From: Prevotella sp.
GTDB taxonomy: Bacteria > Bacteroidota > Bacteroidia > Bacteroidales > Bacteroidaceae
DNA length: 64,000 nucleotides
Reading direction: 5' to 3'
Assembly: GCA_016285055.1 (NCBI GenBank)
Contig: JAEEPZ010000008.1
Span: 1-64,000 of the forward strand
Made by a program: the position numbers and the translations under genes. Positions 3,280 to 64,000 of this stretch are shown piece after piece. Position 1 is the first letter of the stretch; each line of letters opens with the position of its first letter. The notes beneath the pieces are model-generated. The model did not search any database. It was not told the origin of the DNA and saw only the letters and a program-made list of their open reading frames with translations.

Positions 3280-3295
3280 GAAATGTTTTTATAGG

Positions 3296-3371
3296 ACTTA
3301 TGAGTCTTATAGGTCCTATGAGTCCTATATGTCCTATAAGTCCTATAAGACCTATAAGTCCTATAAGCCCC
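3296..3371 (+). repeat. TCCTATAAG-type 9-mer tandem array upstream of apbE
   Basis: gacttatgagtcttataggtcctatgagtcctatatgtcctataagtcctataagacctataagtcctataagcccc. Confidence 0.9.
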
Positions 3372-4364
3372 ATGAAAAACAAAAAATCACTCTATTGGCA
3401 GATACCATTACTGGTGCTCCTCATCGCGGGAACGTTCTACATTGCCAGGCAGAACAGGAACGAGCGGCAGAAGATACAACGGCTGCAGTACGCCTACCAG
3501 CACGACAAAGGGCAGGCTTTCGGCACATTCTACAGCGTCACCTATCAGTCGCCAGCCAACCTGCAAAGCAGCATCGACGAGGCCTTGGCACTGGTGGACG
3601 GCGAGTTCTCGATGTTCAACGAGCACAGCACCGTCGCCGCCATCAATCGCGGCGAGGACCCGTTGCGCAGCAGCATGTTTGAGGAGGTCTATCGCCTGGC
3701 CCAGCAGGTGACGGCCGACACCGACGGCGCCTTCGACATCACCGTGGCACCGCTGGTCAACGCCTGGGGCTTCGGCTTCAAAAACGAGCAGATGCCCACG
3801 GCCGAGCAGGTGGACAGCCTGCTGAAGATACGCTCGCAGATGGACTTCAGCGCCATAGCCAAAGGTTACGGCTGCGACATGGTGGCGCGTGCCTTGGAGG
3901 AACACGGCGTGACGAACTATATGGTGGAGATAGGTGGCGAGGTGGTGACACGAGGCGTCAACCCGCGAGGACAGCAGTGGAATATCGGCGTGAGCAAGCC
4001 CTCCGACGATGCTCAGAGCGGGGAGACCACCGAACTGCAGACCATCCTCGCCGTCAGCGATGCTGCCATGGCCACCAGCGGCAACTACCGCAACTTCTAC
4101 TACAAGGGCGGGCGCAAGTATGCCCACACCATCGACCCGCGCACGGGCTATCCTGTGCAGCACGAGCTGCTCTCGGCCACCGTTTTAGCGCCTCGCTGCG
4201 CCGTGGCCGACGCCTACGCCACCGCCTTCATGGTGTTAGGCTTGGACAGCGCCCGCCAGGTGCTGAAGCGTCACCCGGAGATGCAGGCTTACCTCATCTA
4301 TACCGATGCTGAGGGCCGCCTCACTGAGTGGCACTCGCCGTCGCTGCAGCTGCAGGAGCCATGA
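3372..4364 (+). CDS. apbE: FAD:protein FMN transferase (ApbE family)
   Basis: MKNKKSLYWQ signal anchor, GTFYSVTYQ, DFSAIAKGYGCDMVA, EIGGEVVTRG, HTIDPRTGYP. Start moved from 3300 to 3372 because upstream codons are 9-mer repeat. Confidence 0.93.
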   Translation: MKNKKSLYWQIPLLVLLIAGTFYIARQNRNERQKIQRLQYAYQHDKGQAFGTFYSVTYQSPANLQSSIDEALALVDGEFSMFNEHSTVAAINRGEDPLRSSMFEEVYRLAQQVTADTDGAFDITVAPLVNAWGFGFKNEQMPTAEQVDSLLKIRSQMDFSAIAKGYGCDMVARALEEHGVTNYMVEIGGEVVTRGVNPRGQQWNIGVSKPSDDAQSGETTELQTILAVSDAAMATSGNYRNFYYKGGRKYAHTIDPRTGYPVQHELLSATVLAPRCAVADAYATAFMVLGLDSARQVLKRHPEMQAYLIYTDAEGRLTEWHSPSLQLQEP

Positions 4365-4365
4365 T

Positions 4366-4450
4366 GGGGGTTATGGGGGTTATGGGTCCTATGAGTCCTA
4401 TGGGTCCTATAAGTCCTATGAGTCCTATGGGTCCTATAAGTCCTATAAGT
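4366..4450 (+). repeat. TCCTATAAG/TCCTATGAG/TCCTATGGG 9-mer array
   Basis: Seven tandem 9-mers directly before the ATG at 4455. Confidence 0.92.
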
Positions 4451-11086: not shown

Positions 11087-12352
11087 ATGCCAGAATCCAA
11101 CTTTGTAGACTACGTCAAGATAGTCTGCCGCTCGGGCAAGGGCGGCAGAGGCTCTATGCACCTTCGCCATGTGAAATACAACCCCTTGGGCGGCCCCGAC
11201 GGCGGCGACGGCGGCAAGGGCGGCAGCATCATCCTCAGAGGCAACCACAACTACTGGACGCTGCTGCACCTGAAGTACGAGCGCCACATCTTTGCCGAGC
11301 ACGGCGGCAACGGCGGCAAGGACAAGTGCCACGGCACCGACGGCAAGGACGTCTATATCGACGTGCCGCCGGGCACGGTGGTCTACAACGCCGAGACGGG
11401 CAAGTTCATCTGCGACGTGGCCTACGACGGCCAGGAGGTGATGCTGCTGAAGGGCGGACGCGGCGGACTGGGCAACTTCCAGTTCCGCACCGCCACCAAC
11501 CAGGCGCCGCGCTTTGCACAGCCGGGCGAGCCGGCGCAGGAGATGACCATCATCATGGAGCTGAAGCTGCTGGCCGATGTGGGTCTGGTGGGATTTCCCA
11601 ATGCGGGCAAATCGACGCTGGTCTCAGCCCTGAGCAACGCCAAGCCGAAAATAGCCAACTATCCCTTCACCACGATGGAGCCCTCGTTGGGCATCGTGGG
11701 CTACAGGGACAACAAGTCGTTTGTCATGGCCGACATTCCCGGCATCATCGAGGGAGCCGCCGAGGGCCGCGGCCTGGGCCTTCGCTTCCTGCGCCACATT
11801 GAGCGCAACTCGCTGCTGCTCTTCATGGTGCCCGGCGACAGCGACAACATCCTGCGCGAGTACAACATCCTGTTAGACGAGCTGCGCAAGTTCAACCCCG
11901 AGCTGCTGTCGAAGCAGCGCGTGCTGGCCGTGACGAAGTGCGACCTCTTAGACGAGGAGCTGATGGAGATGCTGCGCCAAGAGATGCAAGCCCCCCATTC
12001 TGCCCCCGAGGGGGCTACAATAGTTAGCAAGCCCGGTAAAGAGACAAATGAAGCCCCCTCGGGGGCAGTAGGGGGGGCTTTCGGGTCTGTCCCTATTGTC
12101 TTCATCTCCGCCGTCACGGGCTACCACCTCGACGAGCTGAAGGATGTGCTGTGGCGTGAGCTGAACAGCGAAAGCAACAAGCTGCAGACCATCATGGCCG
12201 ACGACCGACTGGTGCACCGCGACAAGGACATGTCGCGCTTTGCGCAGGAACTGGCCGACGAAGATGCCGACGAAGACATTGAATACCTCGACGAAGACGA
12301 AATAGAAGATTTCGAAGAGGACGACGACTACGACGAAGCAGAAAACAAATAA
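11087..12352 (+). CDS. obgE: GTPase Obg with an in-frame repeat insertion in the G domain
   Basis: N-terminal Gly-rich Obg fold, [25 protein letters not shown]. Start [10 protein letters not shown]. Confidence 0.96.
11988..12080. repeat. GC-rich palindromic element, copy G1, in frame in obgE
   Basis: agccccccattctgcccccgagggggctacaat...gacaaatgaagccccctcgggggcagtagggggggctt. Confidence 0.93.
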
Positions 12353-15500: not shown

Positions 15501-16299
15501 GCACGACTTCTGCCTCAACGTGGGCAACACCTCGCACGACCTGCAGCTCTCGCTCGACGTGAAGAACGTGCTCAACTTCTTCAACTCGTCGTGGGGCGTC
15601 AGCAAGTATCTCAATCCCGAAATTGGCAACGAGGCCCGTATCCTGAAGTATGAGGGCGTGGACGGCGACGGCTATCCCACTTTCTCCACACCCAGTTTCA
15701 TCAGCGGCAAGACCAACTTGTGGGACAAGAACCACGGCATAGGCCAGTGCTGGTATGCCAGCATCGGTGTGAAGTATATGTTCGAAGGCCGCAAGCGCGA
15801 CGACTGCGGATGCAATGACAGCGACGTGAAGGAGAGAACCGTCTACGTGAAGGACAACACCGAGATCAACCGCCTGAACGATGAGATCAACCGCCTGCGC
15901 AATCAGGTCGATGACCTGAAGAACCGCAAGCCGGAGAAAGAGATTGTCACCGTCGACAACAGCCGTGTCGTCACCTTCCCCTATCTCGTGAACTTCACCG
16001 TCAACACCAGCGACGTGGTCAACCGCGAGAAAGTGAATCTGGAGACTGTTGCCCAGATGATCAAGGCCACACCCGGAAAGAAATACAGTGTCACCGGCTA
16101 TGCCGACAAGCAGACGGGCACCGTAGAGGGCAATGCCAAGCTGGCCAGCAGCCGTGCGCAGAACGTCTACGACATCCTCATCAACAAGTATGGCGTGCCC
16201 GCCTCGCAGCTCGTCAAGGAATCGAAGGGCGGCGTCGACTACATGTACATGAACGATGAGCAGCTCTCACGCTCCGTCATTATCTCTGAAGTTAAATGA
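12508..16299 (+). CDS. TonB-dependent receptor (Oar-like) with C-terminal OmpA-like domain
   Basis: N-terminal CarboxypepD-reg-like domain, plug and barrel sequence, then a coiled-coil linker (INRLNDEINRLRNQVDDLKN) and an OmpA-like end (VTGYADKQTGTVEGNAKLASSRAQNVYDILINKYGV). Confidence 0.9.
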   Translation: MQKRFFLLVAMLFMMVVGTMAQVTTSSMAGKVTAEGSGEEIIGATVVAVHEPSGTRYTAVTNMNGMFTIQGMRPGGPYSVTVSYIGSQTKIMRNITLQLAESYDLPVKLSDETTDLAEVVVTGKASKFSVEKTGAATNINSQQILNMPTVSRDVTDITRLSPYGGKGMSFVGTDGRLGNFTVDGANFNNNFGLSSALPGGGNPISIEALEELQVVISPYDVRQTDFIGGGVNAITKSGTNIYKGSAYIFHKNENMQGDAVDRVQIPNAREKSQNTTYGFTLGGPIIKNKLFLFVNGEMSKTPTVVNRWRGSSPDNPADPDLYISRTSVADLETVSNFVKERYGYDTGSWTNFPADEDNYKLMARLDWNINDRHKLALRYNYTKDTAWNPTNRSSMDGGTASSYDRMGQFSMAYANSMYSAVREVNSFSFDLNSRLTNKLSNQLLATYTKMSDPKRDSPSAEFPFIDILDGNGQNYISLGYELFTWNNSVNNVVWNVKDDITYYSGKHKVTAGVSYEYQMADNQYMRNGTGYYRYDSMNDFLSGAAPHIVNLTYGYGSETKPAARVQYNKLGVYLQDDWNIVDNLKLTYGLRVDGLFFNNSDLMRNNYIYDLDYFGKHIDTGKWPGNTLNFSPRVGFSWDVFGDKSLKVRGGTGFFMGRLPLVFFTNMPTNSGMVQNNAKLSSDGLRSSDKTDMSQFAGGLVTDANGHATIAALKEKLLSMGYPNTITPADGVKQSTINAVDPDFRLPQVWKTSLAIDYQLPVSFPFTITAEGIFNKTLNAACIRDWSIPNVGGFARLNGPDNRPLYPANYRVGQGAFVLVNTTKGYGWSANLMVNTQPAQWISLMAAYTHTVNKELTGMPGSNAESAFTYVPTIEGPNNIRLHNSQFMTPDRFVASATIHDKCRNHFSFIYESWRGGNNYSFMTTNDMNADGYAYDAIYIPTDQQVADGEFRFVSMDDAVRFMDFVHRSDYLKDHQGEYAEAYSVYSPWVHRVDFAYKHDFCLNVGNTSHDLQLSLDVKNVLNFFNSSWGVSKYLNPEIGNEARILKYEGVDGDGYPTFSTPSFISGKTNLWDKNHGIGQCWYASIGVKYMFEGRKRDDCGCNDSDVKERTVYVKDNTEINRLNDEINRLRNQVDDLKNRKPEKEIVTVDNSRVVTFPYLVNFTVNTSDVVNREKVNLETVAQMIKATPGKKYSVTGYADKQTGTVEGNAKLASSRAQNVYDILINKYGVPASQLVKESKGGVDYMYMNDEQLSRSVIISEVK

Positions 16300-16456
16300 G
16301 TTGAGAGTTTAGAGTTTAGAGATGAGAGTTGAGAGTTTAGAGTTGAGAGTTTAGAGTTGAGAGATTAGAGTTTAGAGTTGAGTGTTGAGAGATTAGAGTT
16401 TAGAGTTGAGAGATTAGAGTTTAGAGATTAGAGTTTAAAGTTTAGAGTTGAACATT
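16298..16456 (+). repeat. Heptamer array (TTGAGAG / TTTAGAG / ATTAGAG)
   Basis: About 20 degenerate 7-mers between the receptor and the next lipoprotein. Confidence 0.92.
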
Positions 16457-21783: not shown

Positions 21784-21884
21784 AGTTGTTTTCTCCTTTG
21801 TTGTTAATTATCAAGTAGATGCTGCAAATTTACTGAGAAATGCGCGACGCGCCAAATTTATTAAGGATAATTAAGAATTCGTTT

Positions 21885-22128
21885 GGGAGTTAAGGGAGTT
21901 AGGAGTTAAAGGAGCCAAAGTTAGGAGTTAAAGGAGTTAGGAGTTAAAGGAGTTAAAGGAGTTAAAGGAGTTAAAGACATTACCTTTGCTGTGGATTTCG
22001 ACCCAGAGACAAAGGCTTTTCATGGTGAGACATTTGTCTTTAACTCCTTTAACTCCTTTAACTCCTTTAACTCCTTTAACTCCTACCTCCCTTAACTCCT
22101 TTAACTCCTTTAACTCCTTTAACTCCTA
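21885..22128. repeat. 9-mer inverted-arm element A with conserved core
   Basis: ggagttaaa units, core 21976-22038 (63 nt), then tttaactcc units. Confidence 0.93.
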
Positions 22129-22926
22129 AAAGTTGATGCGGATGGTGAGCTTGGCGGCATCAAAGGTGACGTTGCTGTCTTCCTCAACAAACCTCGTCAG
22201 CACACCGCTGTCGGCCAGCTCGTGTGGCGTGCCGATGGCCAGCGTGCCGTCGGTCTGCAACAGCCACAGGCGGTCGGCCACCTGCAGGGCCAGCTCCAGG
22301 TCGTGGGTAGAGAGGAATACCGTCTTCTGCTGCTCTCGGCAGATGCGTCGCAAAAGCAGTAGCGTGTCCACCTTCGACGGATAGTCGAGGAAGGCCGTCG
22401 GCTCGTCCAGATAGATGATGCTGGTCTGCTGGGCCAGCGCCTTGGCTATCATCACCTTCTGCCGCTCGCCGTCGCTGAGTGTCGTCACCAGCCGGTCGGT
22501 GAGCGCGGTGATGCCCACCAGGCTGATGGCCTCGTTCACCACCTGCTCGTCGTCGCCGTTCAGCTTCCCCCAGAAGCCTGTGTAGGGCGAGCGGCCCATC
22601 GCCACCAGCTGCCACACCGTCATCTGCTGCACGTCGGGGCGCTCGGTCAGCACAATGCCGATGCACTGTGCTATCTCCTTGGCGCTGTAGTCCTCAAGGC
22701 GCTTCTCGCCGACGCAAATCTCGCCGCCCAGGCAGGGTTGAAAGGCCGCCAGCGTGCGCAGCAGCGTCGACTTGCCCGCACCGTTACGGCCCAGCAGGCA
22801 GGTCAGCTCACCTTGCTGCAAGGCTGCCGTGATGCCACTGGCCACAGTCCGCACGCCCTGCCGCGTACGGTAGCCTATGCTGACGTTTGTCAGACGCACT
22901 GGCACATCATAATTCATAGCATTCAC
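22126..22926 (-). CDS. ABC transporter ATP-binding protein (FecE/BtuD-like)
   Basis: LLGRNGAGKSTLLRTL, TTLSDGERQKVMIAKALAQ, IIYLDEPTAFLD. Confidence 0.92.
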   Translation of the reverse strand: MNAMNYDVPVRLTNVSIGYRTRQGVRTVASGITAALQQGELTCLLGRNGAGKSTLLRTLAAFQPCLGGEICVGEKRLEDYSAKEIAQCIGIVLTERPDVQQMTVWQLVAMGRSPYTGFWGKLNGDDEQVVNEAISLVGITALTDRLVTTLSDGERQKVMIAKALAQQTSIIYLDEPTAFLDYPSKVDTLLLLRRICREQQKTVFLSTHDLELALQVADRLWLLQTDGTLAIGTPHELADSGVLTRFVEEDSNVTFDAAKLTIRINF

Positions 22927-22930
22927 AAGG

Positions 22931-23116
22931 TTTGATAGGAGTTAAAGGAGTTAGGAGTTAAAGGAGTTAAAGGAGTTAAAGACAAATGACTCTCCATGAA
23001 AAGAGCCTTTGCCTCTGAGTCGAAATCCACAGCAAAGGTAATGTCTTTAACTCCTTTAACTCCTTTAACTCCTTTAACTCCTTCCTTTGGCTCCTTTAAC
23101 TCCATAAACTCCTAAA
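22931..23116. repeat. 9-mer inverted-arm element B, core in reverse orientation
   Basis: Core 22981-23045 is the reverse-complement relative of element A's core. Confidence 0.93.
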
Positions 23117-23356
23117 TTATTTCCTGAACAGCGATGCGACGAGAAGGACGACGACTGCACCCACCACGGCCGTTCCTAACTGGCCCAGCAGACCGCCCCA
23201 CGACACGCCCAGTAATTGAAAGAGCCATCCGCCTACCGCACCACCGATGATACCCAGTATCAGGTTAATGATGATACCAAAACCGCCGCCTCTCATCAGC
23301 TTACCGGCAATGAAGCCGGCCAGGCAGCCAATCACTATCGACAAAATAATTCCCAT
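23117..23356 (-). CDS. GlsB/YeaQ/YmgE family stress-response membrane protein
   Basis: MGIILSIVIGCLAGFIAGKLMRGGGFGIIINLILGIIGGAVGGWLF. Confidence 0.92.
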   Translation of the reverse strand: MGIILSIVIGCLAGFIAGKLMRGGGFGIIINLILGIIGGAVGGWLFQLLGVSWGGLLGQLGTAVVGAVVVLLVASLFRK

Positions 23357-24362: not shown

Positions 24363-24645
24363 CTACTCTTTATACACATCTCGGAGGGAGTAGCCCCGAA
24401 GGGACGACGGAAGACGATGGTGCGTACCAATCGTCCGATGGTGAGCACCAATCGTCCAGGCAGGGGCAACGCCCCTGTAAACAGTTGGCCACCAACAAAT
24501 GAAGCCCTGAAGGGGCGACGGAATAAAGGCAGGGGCAACGTCCCTGTAAACGGTTGGCCACCAACAAATGAAGCCCTGAAGGGGCGACGGAGTATTCTGC
24601 CGCCCCTTCGGGGGTACTCCCTCCGAGATGTGTATAAAGAGTAGT
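24363..24645. mobile_element. MITE-like element with perfect 30-bp terminal inverted repeats
   Basis: ctactctttatacacatctcggagggagta (24363-24392) and its exact reverse complement (24616-24645); no ORF of its own. Confidence 0.75.
24461..24595 (+). repeat. Two tandem copies of a ~65-70-nt unit inside the MITE-like element
   Basis: ggcaggggcaacg[cc/tc]cctgtaaac[a/g]gttggccaccaacaaatgaagccctgaaggggcgacgga. Confidence 0.9.
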
Positions 24646-29730: not shown

Positions 29731-29744
29731 ACCAGCAGGACGAT

Positions 29745-29877
29745 GGGGCCTATAGGCCTCATGGGTCTCATAGGTCCTATAGGTCCTATAGGTCCTATAG
29801 GTCCTATAAGTCCTATAAGTCCTATAAGTCCTATAAGTCTCATAAGTCCCATAAGTCCCATAAGTCCCATAAGCCCT
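29745..29877 (+). repeat. TCCTATAAG/TCCTATAGG 9-mer array upstream of coaD
   Basis: About 14 tandem 9-mers running into the start codon (ccctATGaaa). Confidence 0.95.
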
Positions 29878-30333
29878 ATGAAAACAGGAATATTCGTCGG
29901 GAGTTTCAATCCCTTCACAGCGGGTCACGATTCTGTCGTGACCAGAGCCCTGCCGCTCTTCGACCGCCTCGTCATCGGCGTCGTAGGCCAACAGGTGAAC
30001 AAACCCGGGCAGCCGTCGGCAGAAGAGCGGGCTGAGGCCATCCGCCGCATCTACGCCAACGAACCGCGCATCGAGGTAAAGCCCTACTACGGCCTCGCTG
30101 TGGATTTCGCGCGTGAGGAAGGCGCGCGATTCATTGTGAAAGGCGTCCGTTCCGTCAAGGACTTCGAATACGAGCGCGAACAGGCCGACGTCAACCGTCT
30201 CCTCAGTAACGGAGAGATAGACACCGTCCTGCTTTACGCCGAGCCTCACCTGGCCAGCATCTCCAGCAGCATGGTGCGCGAGCTGCAGCACTACGGGCAG
30301 GATGTTTCGCCATTTCTTCCTATAAAGAAATGA
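29878..30333 (+). CDS. coaD: Pantetheine-phosphate adenylyltransferase
   Basis: MKTGIFVGSFNPFTAGHDSVVTRALPLFD, ISSSMVREL. Confidence 0.95.
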   Translation: MKTGIFVGSFNPFTAGHDSVVTRALPLFDRLVIGVVGQQVNKPGQPSAEERAEAIRRIYANEPRIEVKPYYGLAVDFAREEGARFIVKGVRSVKDFEYEREQADVNRLLSNGEIDTVLLYAEPHLASISSSMVRELQHYGQDVSPFLPIKK

Positions 30334-30356: not shown

Positions 30357-30640
30357 TTTCAACTTTCGCAAGTTTTGGAGTTAAAGGAGTTAAAGGAGTT
30401 AAAGACAATAGCTATGCTATGGATTTCAACCCAGAGACAAAGGCTTTTTCATGGAGAGTCATTTGTCTTTAACTCCCTTAACTCCCTTAACTTCCTTAAC
30501 TCCCTTAACTCCTTTAACTCCTTTAACTCCTTTAACTCCCTTAACTCCTTTAACTCCCTTAACTCCTTTAACTCCCTTAACTCCTTTAACTCCTTTAACT
30601 CCTTTAACTCCTTTAACTCCTGAAAGTCGAAACTTGAATT
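30357..30640. repeat. 9-mer inverted-arm element C with core 30404-30467
   Basis: Left end caactttcgcaagttttggag, 9-mers, core, long tttaactcc array, right end ctcctgaaagtcgaaacttgaatt. Confidence 0.95.
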
Positions 30641-31499: not shown

Positions 31500-31509
31500 T
31501 AAAGTTGTG

Positions 31510-31604
31510 GTCCCCCCTTCTGCCCCCTAAGGGGGCTACTTTAGTTTTGTGAATAGACGATAAACTAATGTAGCCCCTTCAGGGGGGAGAAGGGGGGAGC
31601 CTTC
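31510..31604. repeat. GC-rich palindromic element, intergenic copy G2
   Basis: tccccccttctgccccctaagggggctac...aatgtagccccttcaggggggagaaggggggagcc. Confidence 0.88.
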
Positions 31605-31607
31605 ATA

Positions 31608-31793
31608 ATTCAACTTTCGCCAGTTTTGGAGTTAAAGGAGTTAAGGGAGTTAAAGGAGTTAAAGACAATAGCTTTGCTATGGATTTCAACCCAGAGACAA
31701 AGGCTTTTCATGGAGAGCCAGTTGTCTTTATCTGCCTTAACTCCCTTAACTCTTTTAACTCCTGAAAGTTGATTGAATGCGAAACTTGAATTC
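31608..31793. repeat. 9-mer inverted-arm element D with core 31664-31726
   Basis: Left end aattcaactttcgccagttttggag; right end ctcctgaaagttgattgaatgcgaaacttgaatt. Confidence 0.95.
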
Positions 31794-40427: not shown

Positions 40428-43400
40428 AAAAGACTCAATTAGCCTGTTTGGCGGCGTTATTTTTTCTGACGACCGGACAGGTGATGGCAGGCAAGCAAGA
40501 GGCCTGTCCACAGGACAGCAAGCCCTGGACGTTCTGGTACTGGATGTACGGCGCCGTCAGCGAGGCTGGCATTCGTGCCGACCTGCAGGCGATGAAGGAC
40601 GTGGGGCTCGGCGGCTGCTATCTCATGCCCATACGCGGCACGGAACAGGCTCCCAAAGACCTGCCGCCACTGCCCGGCGAGCCGGCACAACAGCTGACAC
40701 CACGCTTCTGGCAGCTCATCGACTACGCCATGCAGCAGGCCGACAGCCTCGGCCTGAAAATGGGCTTCCATATCTGCGACGGCTTCGCCCTGGCTGGCGG
40801 ACCGTGGATAACGCCCGAGGAATCTATGCAGCAAGTGGTATGGAGCGACACCGTCGTCGCACTTGATGACCTCAGACTTAAGCGGAGCTTGACAGAAAAA
40901 ACAACATATCCGCGCGAGGAGGCGGTGCCTGAGTCGCTACTGCCCGCCCCAGCTGTCAGCCCTGGCGTCTACTATGAGGACATCGCCACCTTCGTCTGTC
41001 CCGTATGGGGCGATGCCATCGTCCCCACACCCAGCGTCTCCGGCACCATAAAACCCGACGAGAAAGGCACTTTCCGCGCCACGCAGCCAGGCTACATCCA
41101 GTTCACCTACGACAGCCCCGTCACCGTGCGCAGCGTCGAGCTGTTCCCCTCGGCCAACAATATCCAGACGCAGCGCCTGCTCGTCCAAGCCAGCACCGAC
41201 GACAGCGGCACATCGTTTCGCGACGTGCGTCAGCTCACGCCGCCGCGCCAGGGCTGGCAGAACACCAATACCGCCATTCCCCTGCGCCACAACGCCAACC
41301 ACTACACCTACGCCCTGCCCGAAACCACGGCGCGTCATTTCCGCTTTGTCTGGACGCCCGAGGGCAGTGAGCCAGGCGCCGAAGACCTTGATGCCGCGAA
41401 GTGGAGTCCCGTGCTGAAGATGAACGACATCCGCCTCTCCGCCCAGCCCGTCATCGACCAGTACGAGAGCCTCAACGGCAGCTTCTGGCGCCAGCCTGAG
41501 GGGAGGGGTGCTGTGGGTGCTATGAGTCCTATGGGTCTTATGGGTCCTATGGGGCCTATGAGTCCTATGGGGGGGGCTGGCCCTACTGCTCTGCGCATCC
41601 TGCGCATTGGCCATGCCTCCACAGGCCACACCAATGCCACGGCCGGCGGTGCACGGGGCTTAGAGTGCGACAAGTTCTCAGCCGCTGCCGTGTCGAAGCA
41701 GGTGGACAGCTGGTTTGGGGCCTTCATGCAGCGCCCTCACAGCAGCGTGGTGAAATACATGCACGTCGACTCATGGGAGTGCGGCTCGCAGAACTGGAGC
41801 CGCAACTTCGCCGCTGAGTTTCAGAAGCGCCGCGGCTACGACCTGCTGCCCTTCCTGCCCGTCTATGCCGGTGTGCCCATCGACGCCATGCCCGAGGCCC
41901 AGGCCCTCGGCATCAGCAGCGAGCAGGTGCTGCGTGACGTGCGCCTCACTGTCAACGACCTCATACAGGACATCTTCTTCGCCACGGTAGCTGGGAAAGC
42001 ACGGCAATACGGCGTGTCACTCTCTGCCGAGAGCGTCGCTCCGACGATGGTCAGCGACGGCATGCAGCACTACAAGGCGGTGGACGCGCCAATGGGAGAG
42101 TTCTGGCTGAACTCGCCCACGCACGACAAGCCCAACGACATGCTCGACGCCATCAGCGGGGCTCACGTCTATGGCAAGAACATCGTTCAGGCTGAGGGAT
42201 TCACCGAGGTGCGCGGCGTGTGGGACGAGACGCCCGCCTCGCTCAAGACGCTGCTCGACAGGCAGCTGGCGTCTGGCATGAACCGACTGTTCTTCCACGT
42301 CTTTGCCCACAACCCGTGGACGGACCGCAAACCCGGTATGACCCTCGACGGGATAGGACTTTTCTTCCAGCGCGACCAGACGTGGATGCCTGAAGCCAAG
42401 GCCTTCGTCGACTATGTCACGCGCTGCCAGCAGCTGTTGCAGCGGGGCACGCCGGTGGTCGACATCGCTGTCTATACCGGCGACGGCATGCCACGCCGTG
42501 CCTGGCGTCCGGAGCAATTGGTCGACATGCTGCCCGGTCTCATCGGCAGCGAGCGCGTAGCAGCCGAGCATGAGCGTCTCGCCAACGCCGGCCAGCCGAT
42601 GGAGGAGAGTCCCGTAGGCGTGAAGCACAGCGCGAACATCGCCGACCCCGCCGCCTGGGTCAACGCCCTCGGCGGCTACAACTTCGACTCGATGAACCCT
42701 GATGGCCTGATGGCTTATGGGGCCTATGAGTCCTATGGGTCTTATGGGGCCTATGAGTCCTATGAGACCTATAAGTCCTATGAGACCTATAAGTCCCATA
42801 AGACCCATGAGTCCCATAAGACCTCTGCTCCTCCCTGCTACCCTGTGCTCGTGATGCCGCAGGGGCTTCAACTTTCTCCTGAAACAAAAGCCCGCGCTGA
42901 TGAGCTGAGGAAGCAGGGCGTCATCGTCATCGACGAACCGCTTCACGACTCGGCCATCGCAGGCCTGCCGCCCGATGTGCAGCTGCCACCCGGCATCGCC
43001 TTCTGCCACCGCCGCGATGGTGCGAAGGACATCTATTTCCTCAGCAACCAGCAGGATGAGGAGCGGCGCTTCACGGCCACTTTCCGCTGTGCTTCGAAGA
43101 ACGTCATGTTCTATGACCCGCTCAAAAACCGTTATTTCATCGATGTCAACGATGTCATCAGCAGCGACTCGCTCACCGCTATGTATGTCAGGATGGAGCC
43201 CCGGCAGTCGTTGTTCGTCCTCTTTGGCGAGGACAGCATCCGGCCAAAGCTCACTGCCCGCTGGCATCAGCCGATGGTGGGTCCCGACATGCCGAAGACT
43301 GTCTTCAAATGGAAGACCAAAGGCTGGCAGCTGTCCTTCAAGGAGAACGGCGTCAAGCTGAAGAGCGACACCCTCTTCTCGTGGGCTGGCCACAAGAAAC

Positions 43401-45299: not shown

Positions 45300-47168
45300 A
45301 TGTATCGACTTCTCTTCCTCATGCTGATGCCTTTGTGCATGGCAGCAAAGAATGAACCGTTCACGCTGACGGTAGAGCCCGGCGAGTACACCATCGAGCA
45401 GGCCCTGCAGCAGGCGCGCCTGGCCCGGCTGCATGGCAGTGTGCAGGACGGTTTTGTCGTTCTGAAGCTCCAGCCCGGCACCTACCGCCTGTCGCAGCCC
45501 GTCATCCTGCGACCCGAGGACAGCGGCACGCGCATAGTGGCCGAGGGCGATGTGCGCCTCAGCGGCGGCGTGGCCATCGGCGGCTGGCGCAGGCAAGGCC
45601 GGCTGTGGGTGGCCGATGTCCCCCTGTGGAACGGGCGCCCATTGGAGTTTCGCCAGCTCTGGGTGAACGGCAGGAAAGCCGTGCGTGCCCGCGACGTCAG
45701 CGACTTCGAGCAGATGCACCGCATCCTCAGCGTCGACAAGCAGCGCGAAATCATCTACGTGCCCCGTCAGGCAGTAGCCAAACTCTCAGCTCTCATCTCT
45801 CAACCCTCATCTCTCAACTCTCAACCCTCATCTCTCAACCCTCAACTCTCATCTCTCAACCCTCAACTCTCATCTCTCAACTCTCAACTCTCAACTATAG
45901 AGATGGTGCTTCACGAGATGTGGTGCATCGCCAACCTGCGCATCAAAGGCATCACTGTGCAGGGCGATTCCGCAGCCCTGACGTTCCACCAGCCTGAGAG
46001 CCATGTCCACTTCATGCACCCCTGGCCGTCGCCGATGGTCACGCCCGACGGTCAGCACAACTCCGCCTTCTACCTGACAGGCGCGAAGGAACTGTTGGAC
46101 CAGCCCGGCGAGTGGTGGCTTGACGTCCGCGCGCAGAAGCTCTACTACATGCCGCTGCCTGGCGAGGACATGCGGACAGCTGAGGTCATAGCCCCTGCCT
46201 TGGAGACGCTGCTGATGGCAGAGGGCACGCCCGACGAACCCGTGAAGGACGTCACACTCGAAGGAATAACCTTTGAGCACGCCACGTGGCTGCGCCCCAG
46301 CATCAAGGGCCACGCCCCCCTGCAGGCCGGCATGTATATGATTGAGGCATACAAGATTCGCCCGCAAATCAGCCGTCCCAACGGCGACCACAAGCTCGAC
46401 AACCAAGGGTGGGTGGGCCGCCCCGCTGCCGCCGTCGCCGTCAACTGCGCCACCAACCTGCGTTTCGAGGGCTGCACCTTCCGCCATACGGCCTCCACGG
46501 CCCTCGACTGCCATCGCTATGTCGACGGAGGAACCATTGACCGTTGCACGTTCAGCGACATCGGCGGCACGGCCATCCTTGCGGGCAGCTTCGGTCCTGA
46601 GGGCCACGAGGCGCATCTGCCATATAATCCCTTCGACCGCCGAGAAATATGCACGGGCCTCGTCATCAGCAACAACCGCATCGACGATGCCGCCAACGAG
46701 GACTGGGGCTGCCTCGGCATCGGCGCCGGCTTTGTGCGCGGCATCCGCATCCTGCACAATGAGGTGAGCAACGTCAGCTACACCGGCATCAGCGTCGGAT
46801 GGGGATGGAACCAGCAGCCCTGTGCCATGGCCGACAACGTGGTGCGTGGCAACTACATCCACCACTACGCCCGCCACATGTACGACACCGCCGGCATCTA
46901 CACCCTGGGCGCACAGCCGCACACCATGGTCGAGGAGAATGTCGTGGACAGCATCTACAGTCCCGGCTACGTGCACGACCCCGAGCACTGGTTCTATCTC
47001 TACACCGACGAGGGCAGCAGCGGCATCACCGTGCACCGCAACTGGACGCCCGCCGAGAAGTTCCTGAAGAATGCCAACGGCCCCGGCAACACCTGGGAGG
47101 ACAACGGCCCGCTGGTCAACGACAGCATCAAGCACAAAGCCGGCCCCCCTAAAAGCCATGACCATTGA
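45300..47168 (+). CDS. Secreted right-handed beta-helix protein (possibly GH141-like)
   Basis: YTIEQALQQARL, LSGGVAIGGWRRQGRLWVADVP, LWVNGRKAVRARD, repeated N-rich beta-helix rungs. Confidence 0.75.
   Translation: MYRLLFLMLMPLCMAAKNEPFTLTVEPGEYTIEQALQQARLARLHGSVQDGFVVLKLQPGTYRLSQPVILRPEDSGTRIVAEGDVRLSGGVAIGGWRRQGRLWVADVPLWNGRPLEFRQLWVNGRKAVRARDVSDFEQMHRILSVDKQREIIYVPRQAVAKLSALISQPSSLNSQPSSLNPQLSSLNPQLSSLNSQLSTIEMVLHEMWCIANLRIKGITVQGDSAALTFHQPESHVHFMHPWPSPMVTPDGQHNSAFYLTGAKELLDQPGEWWLDVRAQKLYYMPLPGEDMRTAEVIAPALETLLMAEGTPDEPVKDVTLEGITFEHATWLRPSIKGHAPLQAGMYMIEAYKIRPQISRPNGDHKLDNQGWVGRPAAAVAVNCATNLRFEGCTFRHTASTALDCHRYVDGGTIDRCTFSDIGGTAILAGSFGPEGHEAHLPYNPFDRREICTGLVISNNRIDDAANEDWGCLGIGAGFVRGIRILHNEVSNVSYTGISVGWGWNQQPCAMADNVVRGNYIHHYARHMYDTAGIYTLGAQPHTMVEENVVDSIYSPGYVHDPEHWFYLYTDEGSSGITVHRNWTPAEKFLKNANGPGNTWEDNGPLVNDSIKHKAGPPKSHDH
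45777..45899 (+). repeat. Heptamer array (CTCAACT/CTCATCT/CTCAACC) in frame
   Basis: Encodes LSALISQPSSLNSQPSSLNPQLSSLNPQLSSLNSQLST. Confidence 0.95.
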
Positions 47169-48420
47169 CCGTCAGATTCTGCGCTTGGCATTGCCCAGCA
47201 TCGTGTCGAACATCACGGTGCCGCTGTTGGGGCTGTGCGATGTGGCCATCATGGGCCATGTGGGCGGCGCACGGCATATCGGCGCCATCGCTGTCGGCTC
47301 GATGATCTTCAATGTCATGTACTGGCTGTTCGTCTTCCTGCGGATGAGCACCAGCGGACTGACGGCGCAGGCCTACGGCGCCGGGCGCTGGGACGTGACA
47401 CGGCATGTGCGGCGCCGACACCTGACGATGGCCCTCTGCTTCGGCGCGGCCATCATCGTCTTGCAGGAGCCGTTGCGCATGCTCACCTTCTGGCTGATGC
47501 AGGCCGAGGACGATGTCGCGGCACTCTGCACGCCATATTATTATATATGTATATGGGGCGCGCCCGCCGTGCTGGGCCTCTACGTGGTGACGGGCTGGCT
47601 TGTCGGCATGCAGAACACGCGCCTGCCCATGGTCATTGCCATCGGGCAGAACGTGGTGAACATCGCCACGTCGTTGGTGCTGGTGCTCGTCTTCCACATG
47701 GGCATCGTGGGCGTGGCCATCGGCACCTTGGTGGCGCAGTGGGTGGGGTTTCTGACAGCAATAGTAGCCCCCCTGTCGTCCCCCGAGGGGGACACATTAC
47801 CCTGCAAACAGACAAATGAAGCCCCCTTGGGGGCAGTAGGGGGGGCTTTTTTCCTCCGCACAGTGTGCTTGGTCAGCGTGAACCTTTATTTCACGTCGGC
47901 GGGAGCGGCGCAGGGAGCGCTCATTCTGGCGGCCAACACGCTGCTGATGCAGTTCTTCACCCTCTACAGCTACATGACCGACGGCTTTGCCAACGCTGGC
48001 GAGGCCCTGGCCGGCCGTTACGTGGGAGCAGGCGATGCTGCCATGCTCAGGCTGACCATACGCCACCTGTTCCTCTGGGGCTTCATCATGGCCTTGACCT
48101 TTACCGTCGTCTATGCCCTAGGCGGCACGACGCTGCTGCGCCTGCTGACCACCGACAGCGACGTCGTCCGTATGGCGCAACACTATCTGCCTTGGGCCGT
48201 CGCCATTCCTTTTGCGGGCATGGCAGCCTTCGTGTGGGACGGCATCTTCATTGGCATGACGCGAGCCAAAGGCATGTTGGTGGCCTGTTTCGTGGCAGCC
48301 GTGGTGTTCTTCGCGCTGTGGCTGCTGCTGGCGCCGACGATGCACAACGATGCCCTCTGGCTGGCTTTCATCGCATTTCTGACAATGCGCGGTGTGGTAC
48401 AAACAATAGAAGCAATATGA
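47158..48420 (+). CDS. MATE family efflux transporter with in-frame repeat insertion
   Basis: MTIDRQILRLALPSIVSNITVPLLGLCDVAIMGH; 12-TM type sequence. Confidence 0.92.
   Translation: MTIDRQILRLALPSIVSNITVPLLGLCDVAIMGHVGGARHIGAIAVGSMIFNVMYWLFVFLRMSTSGLTAQAYGAGRWDVTRHVRRRHLTMALCFGAAIIVLQEPLRMLTFWLMQAEDDVAALCTPYYYICIWGAPAVLGLYVVTGWLVGMQNTRLPMVIAIGQNVVNIATSLVLVLVFHMGIVGVAIGTLVAQWVGFLTAIVAPLSSPEGDTLPCKQTNEAPLGAVGGAFFLRTVCLVSVNLYFTSAGAAQGALILAANTLLMQFFTLYSYMTDGFANAGEALAGRYVGAGDAAMLRLTIRHLFLWGFIMALTFTVVYALGGTTLLRLLTTDSDVVRMAQHYLPWAVAIPFAGMAAFVWDGIFIGMTRAKGMLVACFVAAVVFFALWLLLAPTMHNDALWLAFIAFLTMRGVVQTIEAI
47765..47850. repeat. GC-rich palindromic element, copy G3, in frame in the MATE gene
   Basis: tagcccccctgtcgtcccccgagggggac...gacaaatgaagcccccttgggggcagtagggggggctttt. 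Confidence 0.93.
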
Positions 48421-53687: not shown

Positions 53688-55775
53688 CTATTGCTGCACG
53701 ATGATGCCACCGTTGGGCTGTATCTCCACGCGAGCCTGCTGCTTCTTGTCGAGCTTCAGCGTGGTCAGCACGGGCTGTCCGGTCTTCGGGTCGTCGACGT
53801 AGTATTTCAGCTGGGCCTTGGCGGGGAACATGTCGAGGGTGAGTGTCAGCTTCAGCGGCTCCTTCTGAGCGTTGAGGCCAGCCACGTACCAGTCGTCGCC
53901 ATGACGGCGAGCCAGCACGACATATTGGCCGGGATAGCCGCAGAGGAACCGTGTCTCGTCCCATGTGGTGGGCATCTGCCGCAGCCAGTCCATCTCAAAC
54001 TGCGGCAGCTCCTGCAGGTTGTTGGGCTGCATGGCCACGCACTGTATGGCCGTCTGCATGGTGATGCCCGATGCCATCTCAAAGATGTCGGTGGTGTGCC
54101 GCGGGTGGCGGCTCTTGTTGTCGGGCGACATGTACTTGTTCATGATGATGCCGCCCCAGTCCATGGTGGCCGTGGCATTGCGGCAGAAGGGGTGCATGGT
54201 GAGGTCGAAGGGCTCGCGGATGGCAGCGCCCTCGTTGAAGAAGACGTTCTCGGAGGCCAGCACAGCCTCGGAGGCCACATAGTTGGGGTACATGCGCTCC
54301 CATCCTCGGGGCAGTGTGCAGCCGTGGAAGATGCACTGCAGGCCGTAGCGGTTGGCGTCGAAGAGGATGTCCTCGTAGAGACGCATCGTCTCCTGCTTGT
54401 CGCCGCCGAAGAAGTCCACCTTGATGCCCTTGACGCCTATCGACTGCATCCATGCCATCTCGCGGTCGCGGGCTATGCTGTTGTTCATGCAGTTGCGCGG
54501 TGTCTGCGGGGCATTGTTCTCATGGCCATTACTGTTGTACCAGAGCATCAGGCTGACGCCCTTCGACTGGGCATAGCGTGACAGTTCGGCGATGCGGTCG
54601 CGGCCTATGCGCTCGTCCCACCAGTTGTCGACGAGGCACAGCTCGAAGCCCATGGCCGAGGCGAGGTCGATGAACTTCACCTGGTCGGCGTAGTTGATGC
54701 TGTTGTCCTGCCAGATGAGCCAGCTCCAGGTGTAGCGTCCCGAGGCGTAGTCGATGGTGGGCTCGTAGAGCGGCTCCACCACGTCGTAGGCGATGGTAGT
54801 CTCTACGATGGGCTTCAGCGTAGTGCCGACGGTGACGGTGCGCCAAGGCGTGCTGCCGGGCAGGGCGATGCCGGGGGCCGACGTGCCATTGCCGTTGTTC
54901 TCGCCTGGCATAGGATAGGCTATCTGATAGAAGCCCGGAGCCCCCCCTTCTGCCCCCGAGGGGGCTACATTACTTTGGAAGTCAGAAAGGCGGCTGCCGC
55001 AGTAGGCGCTGCTGACGCCCGTCTCGGAGATGAGCACCCACGCCCCCTCTTCTGCCCCCGAGGGGGCTACATTTGACTTTTTGCGGGTTTTACCTGCATT
55101 TGAAGCCCCCTCGGAGGCCGTAGGGGGGGCTTGTACCTTGAACAGGCAGGGGAAGGTGTAGCCTTTGCCATACTGGCTGCGGGCGGTCATGGGGGCATCG
55201 GCCTTGTATTCCTCCTCGTAGCTGGGCTTGGTGCGCTCCCACCCTACCATCTCTCCACTCTGCGGGGTGAGGAAGGTGGTGGTGCCTTCGGGCAGAGAGA
55301 AGGCGGTGGATTCATCAAGGATGACGGCACTCTTGGGGTTGTCGCCCTTCTGACGGGGAATGAGGTAGCGGAAGGCCACGTCGTTGTTGCTAACGGAGAA
55401 TTCCATTGACATCTGCTGCTGTTTGCTGTTCTCAAAATTGACGGTGAGCAGGGTGGCGACGTAGTGGATATGGCTCTGCTTCACCTGCCGCATCTCGTAG
55501 CACTTGTCTGTCTGCTCCGCCTTCGTGTCGGTGATCTTCAGTCCCTGCGTAAAGTCGCCGAAGTCGGCCTTGAAGCCTAAGGCGGAAGGCAGCAGCATGG
55601 GCTGCCCTTCGAGGGTGATGGTGTAGGTGGCGCGGCCTCCCTCGTCATTGATTGTCACTTGCAGTTTACCGTCGGGCGAAGTCACCGTGGCCTCACGGGC
55701 ACCAACGGCCACAGGCGCTACCGTCAGCAGCAGCGCCATCGTCATTTCTCTCCAATTTTTCATGTTCTTTTGCAT
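53688..55775 (-). CDS. GH97 family glycoside hydrolase with two in-frame repeat insertions
   Basis: TSPDGKLQVTINDEGGRATYTITLEGQPML, WVLISETGVSSAYCGSRL, VDNWWDERIGRDRIAELSRYAQSKGVSLMLWYNSNG, GIKVDFFGGDKQ. Confidence 0.94.
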   Translation of the reverse strand: MQKNMKNWREMTMALLLTVAPVAVGAREATVTSPDGKLQVTINDEGGRATYTITLEGQPMLLPSALGFKADFGDFTQGLKITDTKAEQTDKCYEMRQVKQSHIHYVATLLTVNFENSKQQQMSMEFSVSNNDVAFRYLIPRQKGDNPKSAVILDESTAFSLPEGTTTFLTPQSGEMVGWERTKPSYEEEYKADAPMTARSQYGKGYTFPCLFKVQAPPTASEGASNAGKTRKKSNVAPSGAEEGAWVLISETGVSSAYCGSRLSDFQSNVAPSGAEGGAPGFYQIAYPMPGENNGNGTSAPGIALPGSTPWRTVTVGTTLKPIVETTIAYDVVEPLYEPTIDYASGRYTWSWLIWQDNSINYADQVKFIDLASAMGFELCLVDNWWDERIGRDRIAELSRYAQSKGVSLMLWYNSNGHENNAPQTPRNCMNNSIARDREMAWMQSIGVKGIKVDFFGGDKQETMRLYEDILFDANRYGLQCIFHGCTLPRGWERMYPNYVASEAVLASENVFFNEGAAIREPFDLTMHPFCRNATATMDWGGIIMNKYMSPDNKSRHPRHTTDIFEMASGITMQTAIQCVAMQPNNLQELPQFEMDWLRQMPTTWDETRFLCGYPGQYVVLARRHGDDWYVAGLNAQKEPLKLTLTLDMFPAKAQLKYYVDDPKTGQPVLTTLKLDKKQQARVEIQPNGGIIVQQ
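54938..54978. repeat. GC-rich palindromic element, half copy G4 in GH97
   Basis: agcccccccttctgcccccgagggggctacattactttgg. Confidence 0.88.
55041..55132. repeat. GC-rich palindromic element, copy G5 in GH97
   Basis: gccccctcttctgcccccgagggggctacatttgac...tttgaagccccctcggaggccgtagggggggctt. Confidence 0.93.
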
Positions 55776-62039: not shown

Positions 62040-62200
62040 CTTTCAGGAGTTAAAGGAGTTAAAGGAGTTAAAGGAGTTAAAGACAAATGACTCTCCATGA
62101 AAAGCCTTTGTCTCTGGGTTGAAATCCATAGCAAAGGTATTGTCTTTAACTCCTTTAACTCCCTTAACTCCTTTAACTCCAAAACTTGCTACAGTTGAAT
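62040..62200. repeat. 9-mer inverted-arm element E, reverse orientation, core 62082-62144
   Basis: ctttcaggagttaaagg...core...tttaactccaaaacttgctacagttgaatt. Confidence 0.95.
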
Positions 62201-62376
62201 TTGTTAAAAGTGTTTGCTTGGGAATATCCTCCTGCAAACTGCAGAAACGAGGCGGAGCTTTCTATAGACGAATGTTGTTTCTCCTCATGGAAAAGAATTG
62301 AGACCAAAACAATAATTTTGGAACAAAAACAAAAACAAAGGAAACAATGTTGTTAATAAATTAGGCAAAAACATAT

Positions 62377-62411: not shown

Positions 62412-64000
62412 ATGAAAGCAAAGTTTATCTGCGGCTGCCTGCTGGCAGCATTGGCCGCTAAGGCACAGAATCCCTTCGTGCAGACCTGGTTCACCAGCGA
62501 CCCCGCACCGATGGTGCACGATGGCAAGATGTATGTGTACACCGGCCACGACGAGGACGGCGCCGACTTCTTCTGGATGCAGGAGTGGCGCGTGTATTCC
62601 ACCACCGACATGGTCAACTGGACCGACCACGGCTCACCGCTGGCTTTGGAGAGCTTCTCCTGGGCCGACGACCGCGCCTGGGCCTCGCAGTGCGTTGCCC
62701 GCAACGGCAAGTTCTACTGGTACATCTGCGCCCACTCGAAGCTCTCTGGCGGCATGGCCATCGGCGTGGCGGTGGGCGACACACCTACGGGGCCTTTTAA
62801 GGATGCCATCGGCAAGCCTCTCTTCGAGAACGGCTCATGGGATCACATCGACCCCACCGTCCTCATTGACGACGACGGACAGGCATGGCTGATGTGGGGC
62901 AACCCGCAGTGCTACTACCTGAAGCTCAACCGCGACATGATTTCCTACAGCGGCGAGCTGGGAAAGCTGGACATGACCGAGGAGGCCTTCGGCGGCCCGA
63001 TGATGCGCCAGCGCCAGCAGGGGAAGAAATACAAGGACAGCTACGTGGAAGGCCCGTGGCTGATGAAGGCCCCCCTCTCATCCCCCCAAGGGGGGAGGAC
63101 TCCCGGTGCCACATCTTCCCCCCAAGGGGGGACAGGAGGGGGGCTGTACTACCTGCTCTATGCTGCCGGCGGCGTGCCTGAGCACATCAGCTACAGCACA
63201 GCCCCGTCGCCCACCGGCCCGTGGAAGTATGCCGGCGAGATCATGCCGCTGAGCGAGACTAACTCGTTCACCAACCACTGCGGCGTGGCCGACTACAAAG
63301 GGCACTCCTATTTCTTCTATCACACAGGCAAGCTGCCCAAGGGCGGCGGATTCGGACGCAGCGTCGCCGTGGAGGAGTTCCAGTACAACGCCGACGGCAC
63401 CTTCCCCACCATCATGCCCACCGACGAGGGCGTGAAGCCCGTCGACACCTTCAGCCCCTACCGTCGCGTCGAGGCTGAGACGATGGCGTTCTCCAAAGGC
63501 CTGAAGACCGAGCAGAACGATGCCATCGGCGTCTACGTCACCGACATTCACAACGGCGACTACATCAAGCTGCAGAACGTGGACTTCGGCACTGCCTGGC
63601 CCACGGGCATCAAGGCACGTGTGGCCAGCGGCCTGCGCGGCGGCACCCTCGAGCTGCACCTCGACAGTGTCAGAGGCCCGCTGCTCGGCTCACTGCAAGT
63701 GCCCGGCACCGGCGGATGGGAGCAGTGGCAGACCATAGAGGCCCCCTTAGCCCCCCCTTCGGCCCCCGAGGGGGCCACAAATGCCCGCAAGTCTAATGAA
63801 GCCCCCTCGGGGGCAGTAGGGGGGGCTACTCACGATTTGTTCCTCGTGTTCAAAGGGCGCAAGGGTCCGAAGCTCTTCAACTTCGACTGGTGGGAGCTCA
63901 ACGGTGTGAAGTCGCGCATCGTCGAGGGCGGCGGCACTGGGGCCTTTAAGGCTGTGATGAAGGAAGAGCCCTCACTGCCTGCACACACCGTCTTCGCTCC
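62412..64000 (+). CDS. GH43 family glycoside hydrolase with C-terminal CBM6-like domain (runs off the window)
   Basis: NPFVQTWFTSDPAPMVHDGKMYVYTGHDEDGADFFWMQEWRVYSTTDMVNWTDHG, DHIDPTVLIDDDGQAWLMWGN, HDLFLVFKGRKGPKLFNFDWWEL; open to the window end. Confidence 0.9.
   Translation, partial: MKAKFICGCLLAALAAKAQNPFVQTWFTSDPAPMVHDGKMYVYTGHDEDGADFFWMQEWRVYSTTDMVNWTDHGSPLALESFSWADDRAWASQCVARNGKFYWYICAHSKLSGGMAIGVAVGDTPTGPFKDAIGKPLFENGSWDHIDPTVLIDDDGQAWLMWGNPQCYYLKLNRDMISYSGELGKLDMTEEAFGGPMMRQRQQGKKYKDSYVEGPWLMKAPLSSPQGGRTPGATSSPQGGTGGGLYYLLYAAGGVPEHISYSTAPSPTGPWKYAGEIMPLSETNSFTNHCGVADYKGHSYFFYHTGKLPKGGGFGRSVAVEEFQYNADGTFPTIMPTDEGVKPVDTFSPYRRVEAETMAFSKGLKTEQNDAIGVYVTDIHNGDYIKLQNVDFGTAWPTGIKARVASGLRGGTLELHLDSVRGPLLGSLQVPGTGGWEQWQTIEAPLAPPSAPEGATNARKSNEAPSGAVGGATHDLFLVFKGRKGPKLFNFDWWELNGVKSRIVEGGGTGAFKAVMKEEPSLPAHTVFA
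63068..63145. repeat. Variant GC-rich palindromic element, copy G6, in GH43
   Basis: gcccccctctcatccccccaaggggggaggactcccggtgccacatcttccccccaaggggggacaggaggggggct. Confidence 0.85.
63749..63827. repeat. GC-rich palindromic element, copy G7, in GH43
   Basis: agcccccccttcggcccccgagggggccacaaatgcccgcaagtctaatgaagccccctcgggggcagtagggggggct. Confidence 0.95.

Follow-up and report, generated by a model that had tools for sequence, protein, structure and literature searches.

A GC-rich palindromic element lies in frame in obgE and in many other genes of a Prevotella-like genome

In-frame palindromic inserts are best known from Rickettsia. The Rickettsia palindromic elements (RPE) and the Wolbachia palindromic elements are short palindromic repeats that lie in frame in unrelated, often housekeeping, genes and there encode a conserved peptide; several RPE families occur per lineage, and a single gene can have different families at nearly the same position (PMC3767692, PMC10969869). 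Such elements have so far come mostly from the Rickettsiales and are readily ascribed to weak selection in shrinking intracellular genomes. Intragenic REP dimers in O. terrae and other bacteria encode 20-30 amino acids, and many of them lie in repair genes such as uvrA (PMC3733652). PARCEL elements are a further case of palindromic DNA read as protein (PMC2996958), and PINSR, a repeat specific to Prevotella, lacks inverted repeats (PMC4755523), which sets it apart from the element reported here. Our literature search found no paper linking Prevotella with palindromic elements in coding sequences, and within the searchable literature inserts of this kind have not been described for this group.

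The window analysed here is a 64,000-nucleotide stretch of a Prevotella-like MAG (4.6 Mb in 257 contigs with 5% contamination; G000 below). It contains the following gene and insert:

11087..12352, plus strand: obgE (Obg/CgtA GTPase), the host gene of the insert (Pfam GTP1_OBG 4.6e-58, MMR_HSR1)
11988..12080, plus strand: family-1 palindromic element, in frame in obgE (sense, register 0, 31 codons)

The insert is a 93-nt GC-rich near-palindrome, with the ends AAGCCCCCC...GGGGGGGCTT, between the G4 (TKCD) and G5 (SAV) motifs of ObgE. Its predicted fold has an energy of -68.5 kcal/mol, compared with -43.9 +/- 3.5 in dinucleotide shuffles (z -7.1). The initial annotation, which had placed an in-frame insert between these two motifs, is confirmed. 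The host obgE, an essential gene that acts in ribosome assembly, is single copy in G000 (one match only), and dN/dS among ObgE proteins that carry inserts is 0.14-0.22; purifying selection still acts on them. In an AlphaFold2 model of poor quality (mean pLDDT 46, shallow alignment), residues 302-336, the region of the insert, are predicted to form an unstructured link that runs from a helix to a strand.

Do related ObgE proteins share this loop? A search of 60 genomes of the genus detected ObgE in 57, and at most of the 30 ObgE loci read from this search the loop is short, resembling ETLPQDLPVVFIS; longer loops are present in G000, in six other genomes and in the named genome L158. Most related ObgE proteins are thus without the insert, an outcome in favor of the initial annotation.

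Relatives of the element had also been reported in MATE, GH97 and GH43 genes and between acpP and fabF, and all were located, the last one being diverged and intergenic. Together with a different palindrome in the GH43 gene, they are:

47766..47849, plus strand: family-1 copy in the MATE transporter gene (47071-48420), in frame, reading VAPLSSPEGDTLPCKQTNEAPLGAVGGAF
55041..55133, minus strand: family-1 copy in the GH97 gene (53688-55775, minus strand), in frame, antisense orientation, register 0
54939..54985, minus strand: half copy of family 1 in the same GH97 gene, in frame, NVAPSGAEGGA
63749..63828, plus strand: family-1 copy in the GH43 gene (62412 to past the window end), near the C-terminal CBM6, in frame
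31509..31600, strand not given: diverged intergenic relative between acpP and fabF, with the core CCCCCTAAGGGGG
63066..63143, plus strand: different palindrome in the same GH43 gene, in frame, KAPLSSPQGGRTPGATSSPQGGTGGG

The P. communis orthologue of the GH97 gene is without a family-1 element, and genome G051 has a family-1 copy at the GH43 position where G000 has the palindrome KAPLSSPQGGRTPGATSSPQGGTGGG. The core CCCCCTAAGGGGG of the acpP-fabF relative puts a TAA in the coding register, and it occurs once in the entire genome; an intergenic subfamily with a TAA core was accordingly rejected.

Copies elsewhere in G000 were sought with a 29-nt pattern from the right arm, allowing up to 3 mismatches, and with the reversed pattern as control. 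The pattern gave 59 + 51 = 110 half-sites and the control gave 0, a number far above what chance would yield. Grouped, the half-sites represent about 90 family-1 copies, so the element is far from absent outside the window. It is 75-93 nt long and consists of two inverted ~30-bp GC-rich units that flank a variable center. When each copy was placed in the longest ORF that spans it, one codon register proved common to 90 of 92 ORF-contained clusters, which extends to the whole genome the single fixed frame previously noted in the window. About 81 of the 90 clusters in register are read in the sense orientation, which gives (K)APLSSPEGDT..., and about 9 in the antisense orientation, which reads ...SPSGDERGA or similar. 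The two exceptions to the register are homologous FtsX/MacB genes that probably come from two species in the bin. The FtsX/MacB gene exists in two versions that are 81% identical (contigs C199 and C45; L015 and L137), as does pyrG (86% identical, contigs C90 and C208; L025 and L131), so the bin probably mixes two related species, with its contamination at 5%.

Because a near-palindrome might be expected to be open in either direction, the initial annotation had described both orientations as stop-free. This is correct for one frame in each orientation, and one more antisense frame is also open, but the remaining three of the six frames of the consensus hold a stop. Avoidance of stops alone thus predicts that two-thirds of the copies should be in register and one-third in sense orientation. 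The observed values are 90 of 92 in register (p 7e-14) and 81 of 90 in sense orientation where about 30 are expected (p 4e-29), p-values that are only indicative because the clusters are partly dependent and some of the genes are homologous. The spacing between the arms varies from 45 to 84 nt in eight classes and is a multiple of 3 in 83 of 83 cases, and no in-frame stop or frameshift was found inside those G000 copies that have coding flanks. The excess of differences at third codon positions among the copies comes mostly from one dimorphic column. Any selection acting on the peptide itself is accordingly weak or of recent date, and strong codon-level selection on it was rejected.

The host genes, as identified with NCBIfam and Pfam, include PyrG, AlaRS, LeuRS, TypA, RecG, UvrA, Lon, TsaD, RimO, RlmD, LeuC, aspartokinase-homoserine dehydrogenase, RecQ, GuaA, RelA/SpoT, glutamate synthase, phosphoglycerate mutase, a TRCF-domain helicase and several glycosidases. 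Core genes are thus among the hosts, and obgE is one that is present in single copy. A 4.6-Mb Prevotella-like genome with about 90 copies, among them copies in tRNA ligase and repair genes and one in a GTPase that has no second gene, does not fit the weak-selection explanation given for shrinking intracellular genomes. The copies constitute a natural map of the core-protein loops that accept about 30 extra residues, and such inserts will turn up in protein models, in marker-gene alignments and in the annotation pipelines used on these bacteria. Insertion, translation and effect on the protein become measurable in these lineages, which include the cultured P. communis.

After a check by codon scores, which moved 3 copies to terminal or intergenic positions, about 87 of the 90 G000 copies are coding, and an unbiased profile search of 440 kb of the same genome gave 16 coding copies out of 17. 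The deficit of intergenic copies is not significant against the plain 9% expectation (p 0.08) and is strong only against the expectation from a frame filter (at least 37% non-coding, our own estimate); by that estimate, simple frame filtering should leave a third or more of the copies non-coding, far above the G000 share. A 395-kb sample of the sister species G059 holds 9 copies, of which only about 3 clearly lie in coding sequence (Fisher p 0.002 against G000). The element can therefore occupy intergenic DNA, and the coding bias is a trait of the G000 copies. An absolute restriction to coding sequence was rejected, given the intergenic acpP-fabF copy, the 3 reassigned copies and the mostly non-coding copies of G059.

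Many host sites are empty in relatives. Across 1.2 Mb from P. communis E15-14, an isolate with a complete genome, the orthologues at about 16 other host sites are free of the element, and in the same G059 sample 5 of 6 comparable sites are empty, fucP having a G059-type variant. A second site in pyrG has an insert in contig C208 and none in C90 of the same assembly. The net gain in length over the orthologue is at many sites often well below 31 amino acids; many sites have lost residues of the host loop, so insertion is not always clean. Family 1 is present in 40 of 200 genomes of the genus, and in an order-wide sample of 295 genomes it was not found outside G000. Its best matches in other species are in frame in 28 of 29 cases and, in a second set of 30 loci, in the majority, but the matches in both sets are the copies that most resemble the coding consensus.

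Some loops are occupied repeatedly, and not always by the same element. On the ObgE tree, at least 5 gains or losses, forced by well-supported branches, are needed to explain which proteins have a long loop. The ObgE proteins of G000 and G059 are 91% identical over their first 308 residues, and the two sister species have different palindromes at the same point. The G059 palindrome belongs to a second family (unit CTCCCCTCCCTCTCAGGGAGGGGCAGGGGGTGGGTCT) that is in frame in many genes and is also present in P. communis. One PyrG loop has family 1 in both G000 versions and in G195, G059 and G191, and in G187, G100 and G034 the same loop has palindromes made of inverted short-repeat arrays (fold z -10.0, -7.8 and -6.2, respectively), so that four unrelated palindromes are found at this single position across genomes. 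In G034 the GltB loop IILTDK...FIPSLLAV holds family 1, and in P. communis it holds family 2. We tentatively suggest, at somewhat short of an even chance, that unrelated palindromes are captured in frame repeatedly at the same few loops of essential proteins by a general, multi-family process in rumen-type Prevotella, that protein-coding sequence is their main habitat in some species and that the loops turn over by replacement of one element by another. Such a process would cover GC-rich dimers of the REPIN type as well as inverted arrays built from 7-9-bp repeats. As a separate observation, pyrG of G191 (L075) has two different palindromic inserts: its first loop holds family 1, and its second, the loop that has family 1 in contig C208 of G000, holds CCCCTCCAAAGGAGGGG...CCTCCCCTTTGGGGAGG (TSPSPSKGGGQGSSPLGRLGEVF).

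In behavior, RPE are the closest system and intragenic REP dimers the next. The proposed likeness to RPE holds for anatomy and behavior, as family 1 is a dispersed palindrome that gives a conserved in-frame peptide in unrelated genes. RPE are about 100-150 nt long, however, whereas family 1 is GC-rich and 75-93 nt; nearly half of the first-reported RPE were coding, compared with about 96% of the family-1 copies in G000; and RPE hosts are an obligate intracellular lineage, whereas family 1 is in the Bacteroidota. Given the phylum, membership of family 1 in the RPE sequence family is unlikely. With REP, BIME and REPIN sequences, palindromes tagged by GTAG or CGTC, it shares the inverted dimer of 20-40-nt palindromic units, and G000 too has a copy in uvrA; but REP sequences are mainly extragenic, have GTAG at one end and are linked to a RAYT, and family 1 is mainly intragenic in G000 and is not associated with Y1_Tnp. 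Its own GTAG is internal to the right arm, and a CGTC in front of the left stem is confined to the SSPEGD subfamily. Like MITEs, family 1 is non-autonomous, has terminal inverted repeats and is shorter than 300 nt; it differs from them in being a near-perfect palindrome with neither a target-site duplication nor an identified cognate insertion sequence. PARCEL elements are tandem arrays of 25 residues in ORFs to which no function is assigned, many of them membrane-targeted, whereas family 1 forms single inserts in core genes.

How might the element have come to lie where it does? The obgE insert is probably one of about 90 copies of a small, non-autonomous, RPE-like palindromic element that is tolerated as a translated loop. 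The element would spread through the genomes of a Prevotella clade, and its in-frame copies would be translated and tolerated. It presumably moves as DNA with the help of an enzyme acting in trans, after which a severe filter would retain copies in sense orientation, in frame 0 and in a tolerant loop: the hydrophilic, Pro/Gly/Ser-rich sense peptide of frame 0 may alone be readily tolerated, and loops between secondary-structure elements may be the only sites that tolerate it. The peptide would then be made and kept in the protein as a flexible loop. The initial annotation had suggested looking for target duplications; there is none in a set of 63 copies, whose flanks of 2-6 nt are not shared in excess, and no target consensus was found apart from the AA...TT ends of the element itself. 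Searches of phages and plasmids gave no relevant match, and Rfam gave nothing relevant (sub-threshold generic hairpins only, no intron match). Transposases of the Y1_Tnp/RAYT type are present in 19 of 40 carrier and 72 of 160 non-carrier genomes (Fisher p 0.86), and G000 has one partial match only, at a contig end; a Y1_Tnp/RAYT mobilizer was rejected, there being no association across these 200 congeners.

This last result bears on the proposal that family 1 belongs to the REP/REPIN class, is moved by a RAYT transposase and has coding copies that are simply survivors. Its inverted dimer of ~30-bp palindromic units, the lack of a target duplication, the existence of non-coding copies and the REP dimers encoding 20-30 amino acids known inside genes of other phyla (PMC3733652) would all agree with this, but a terminal GTAG tag beside the stem is not evident (the GTAG lies inside the arm), there is no link with Y1_Tnp genes, and nearly all G000 copies are intragenic, so we regard it as rather unlikely. 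Selection of the peptide or of the RNA hairpin for a function, as a tag, linker, interaction loop or translational pause, seems to us improbable. It would account for the strong bias towards a single one of the three readings free of stops (about 81 sense and 9 antisense, where about 30 sense are expected), for the core-gene hosts and for the repeated occupation of the same loops; yet the hosts are unrelated in function, the majority of sites hold no insert in sister or related species, conservation at the codon level is weak, and the unrelated palindromes in the same loops indicate that no particular peptide is required.

The insert might instead be removed or skipped in expression, as a self-splicing or bypassed (byp-like) element, for which the strong mRNA hairpin and the marked enrichment in coding genes of G000 could speak. 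Such an element need not keep the frame, however, whereas all 83 spacings do so; the copies with coding flanks are free of in-frame stops, Rfam gave no intron match, and frame-keeping spacings and stop-free copies are demanded of a translated insert and not of a spliced or bypassed one. We therefore consider removal very improbable. That there is no inserted repeat at all, only ordinary variable loops, slippage products or assembly artefacts, is hardly credible: the loops do vary in length in non-carriers too, and G000 is a fragmented MAG with 5% contamination, but the same sequence recurs across dozens of unrelated genes and 40 independent assemblies, and the second family behaves alike in the complete isolate genome of P. 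communis.

The window contains other repeats as well. Composite palindromes, mostly outside genes, lie at 21883-22136, 22935-23122, 30365-30611, 31625-31763 and 62043-62201; they consist of the 9-mer AGGAGTTAA / TTAACTCCT arrayed in inverted orientation about a core (for example AAAGCCTTTGTCTCTGGGTTGAAATCCATAGCAAAGG), with about 88-96% similarity from one place to another. In pyrG of G187, G034 and G100, similar palindromes of the inverted-array kind are read in frame. Arrays of the 9-mer TATAAGTCC / TATGGGTCC are at 3289-3375, 4363-4449, 29737-29882, 41485-41580 and 42698-42832, some of them inside ORFs or at ORF ends and some mutually inverted. Two 7-mer arrays (GAGTTGA / CAACTCTC) at 16298-16451 and 45780-45899 have opposite orientations and are at most 84% complementary. 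Finally, a long stretch that contains no large ORF has, at 24458-24594, two 68-nt direct copies of AGGCAGGGGCAACGCCCCTG...AACAAATGAAGCCCTGAAGGGGCGACGG, which represent a further palindromic family.
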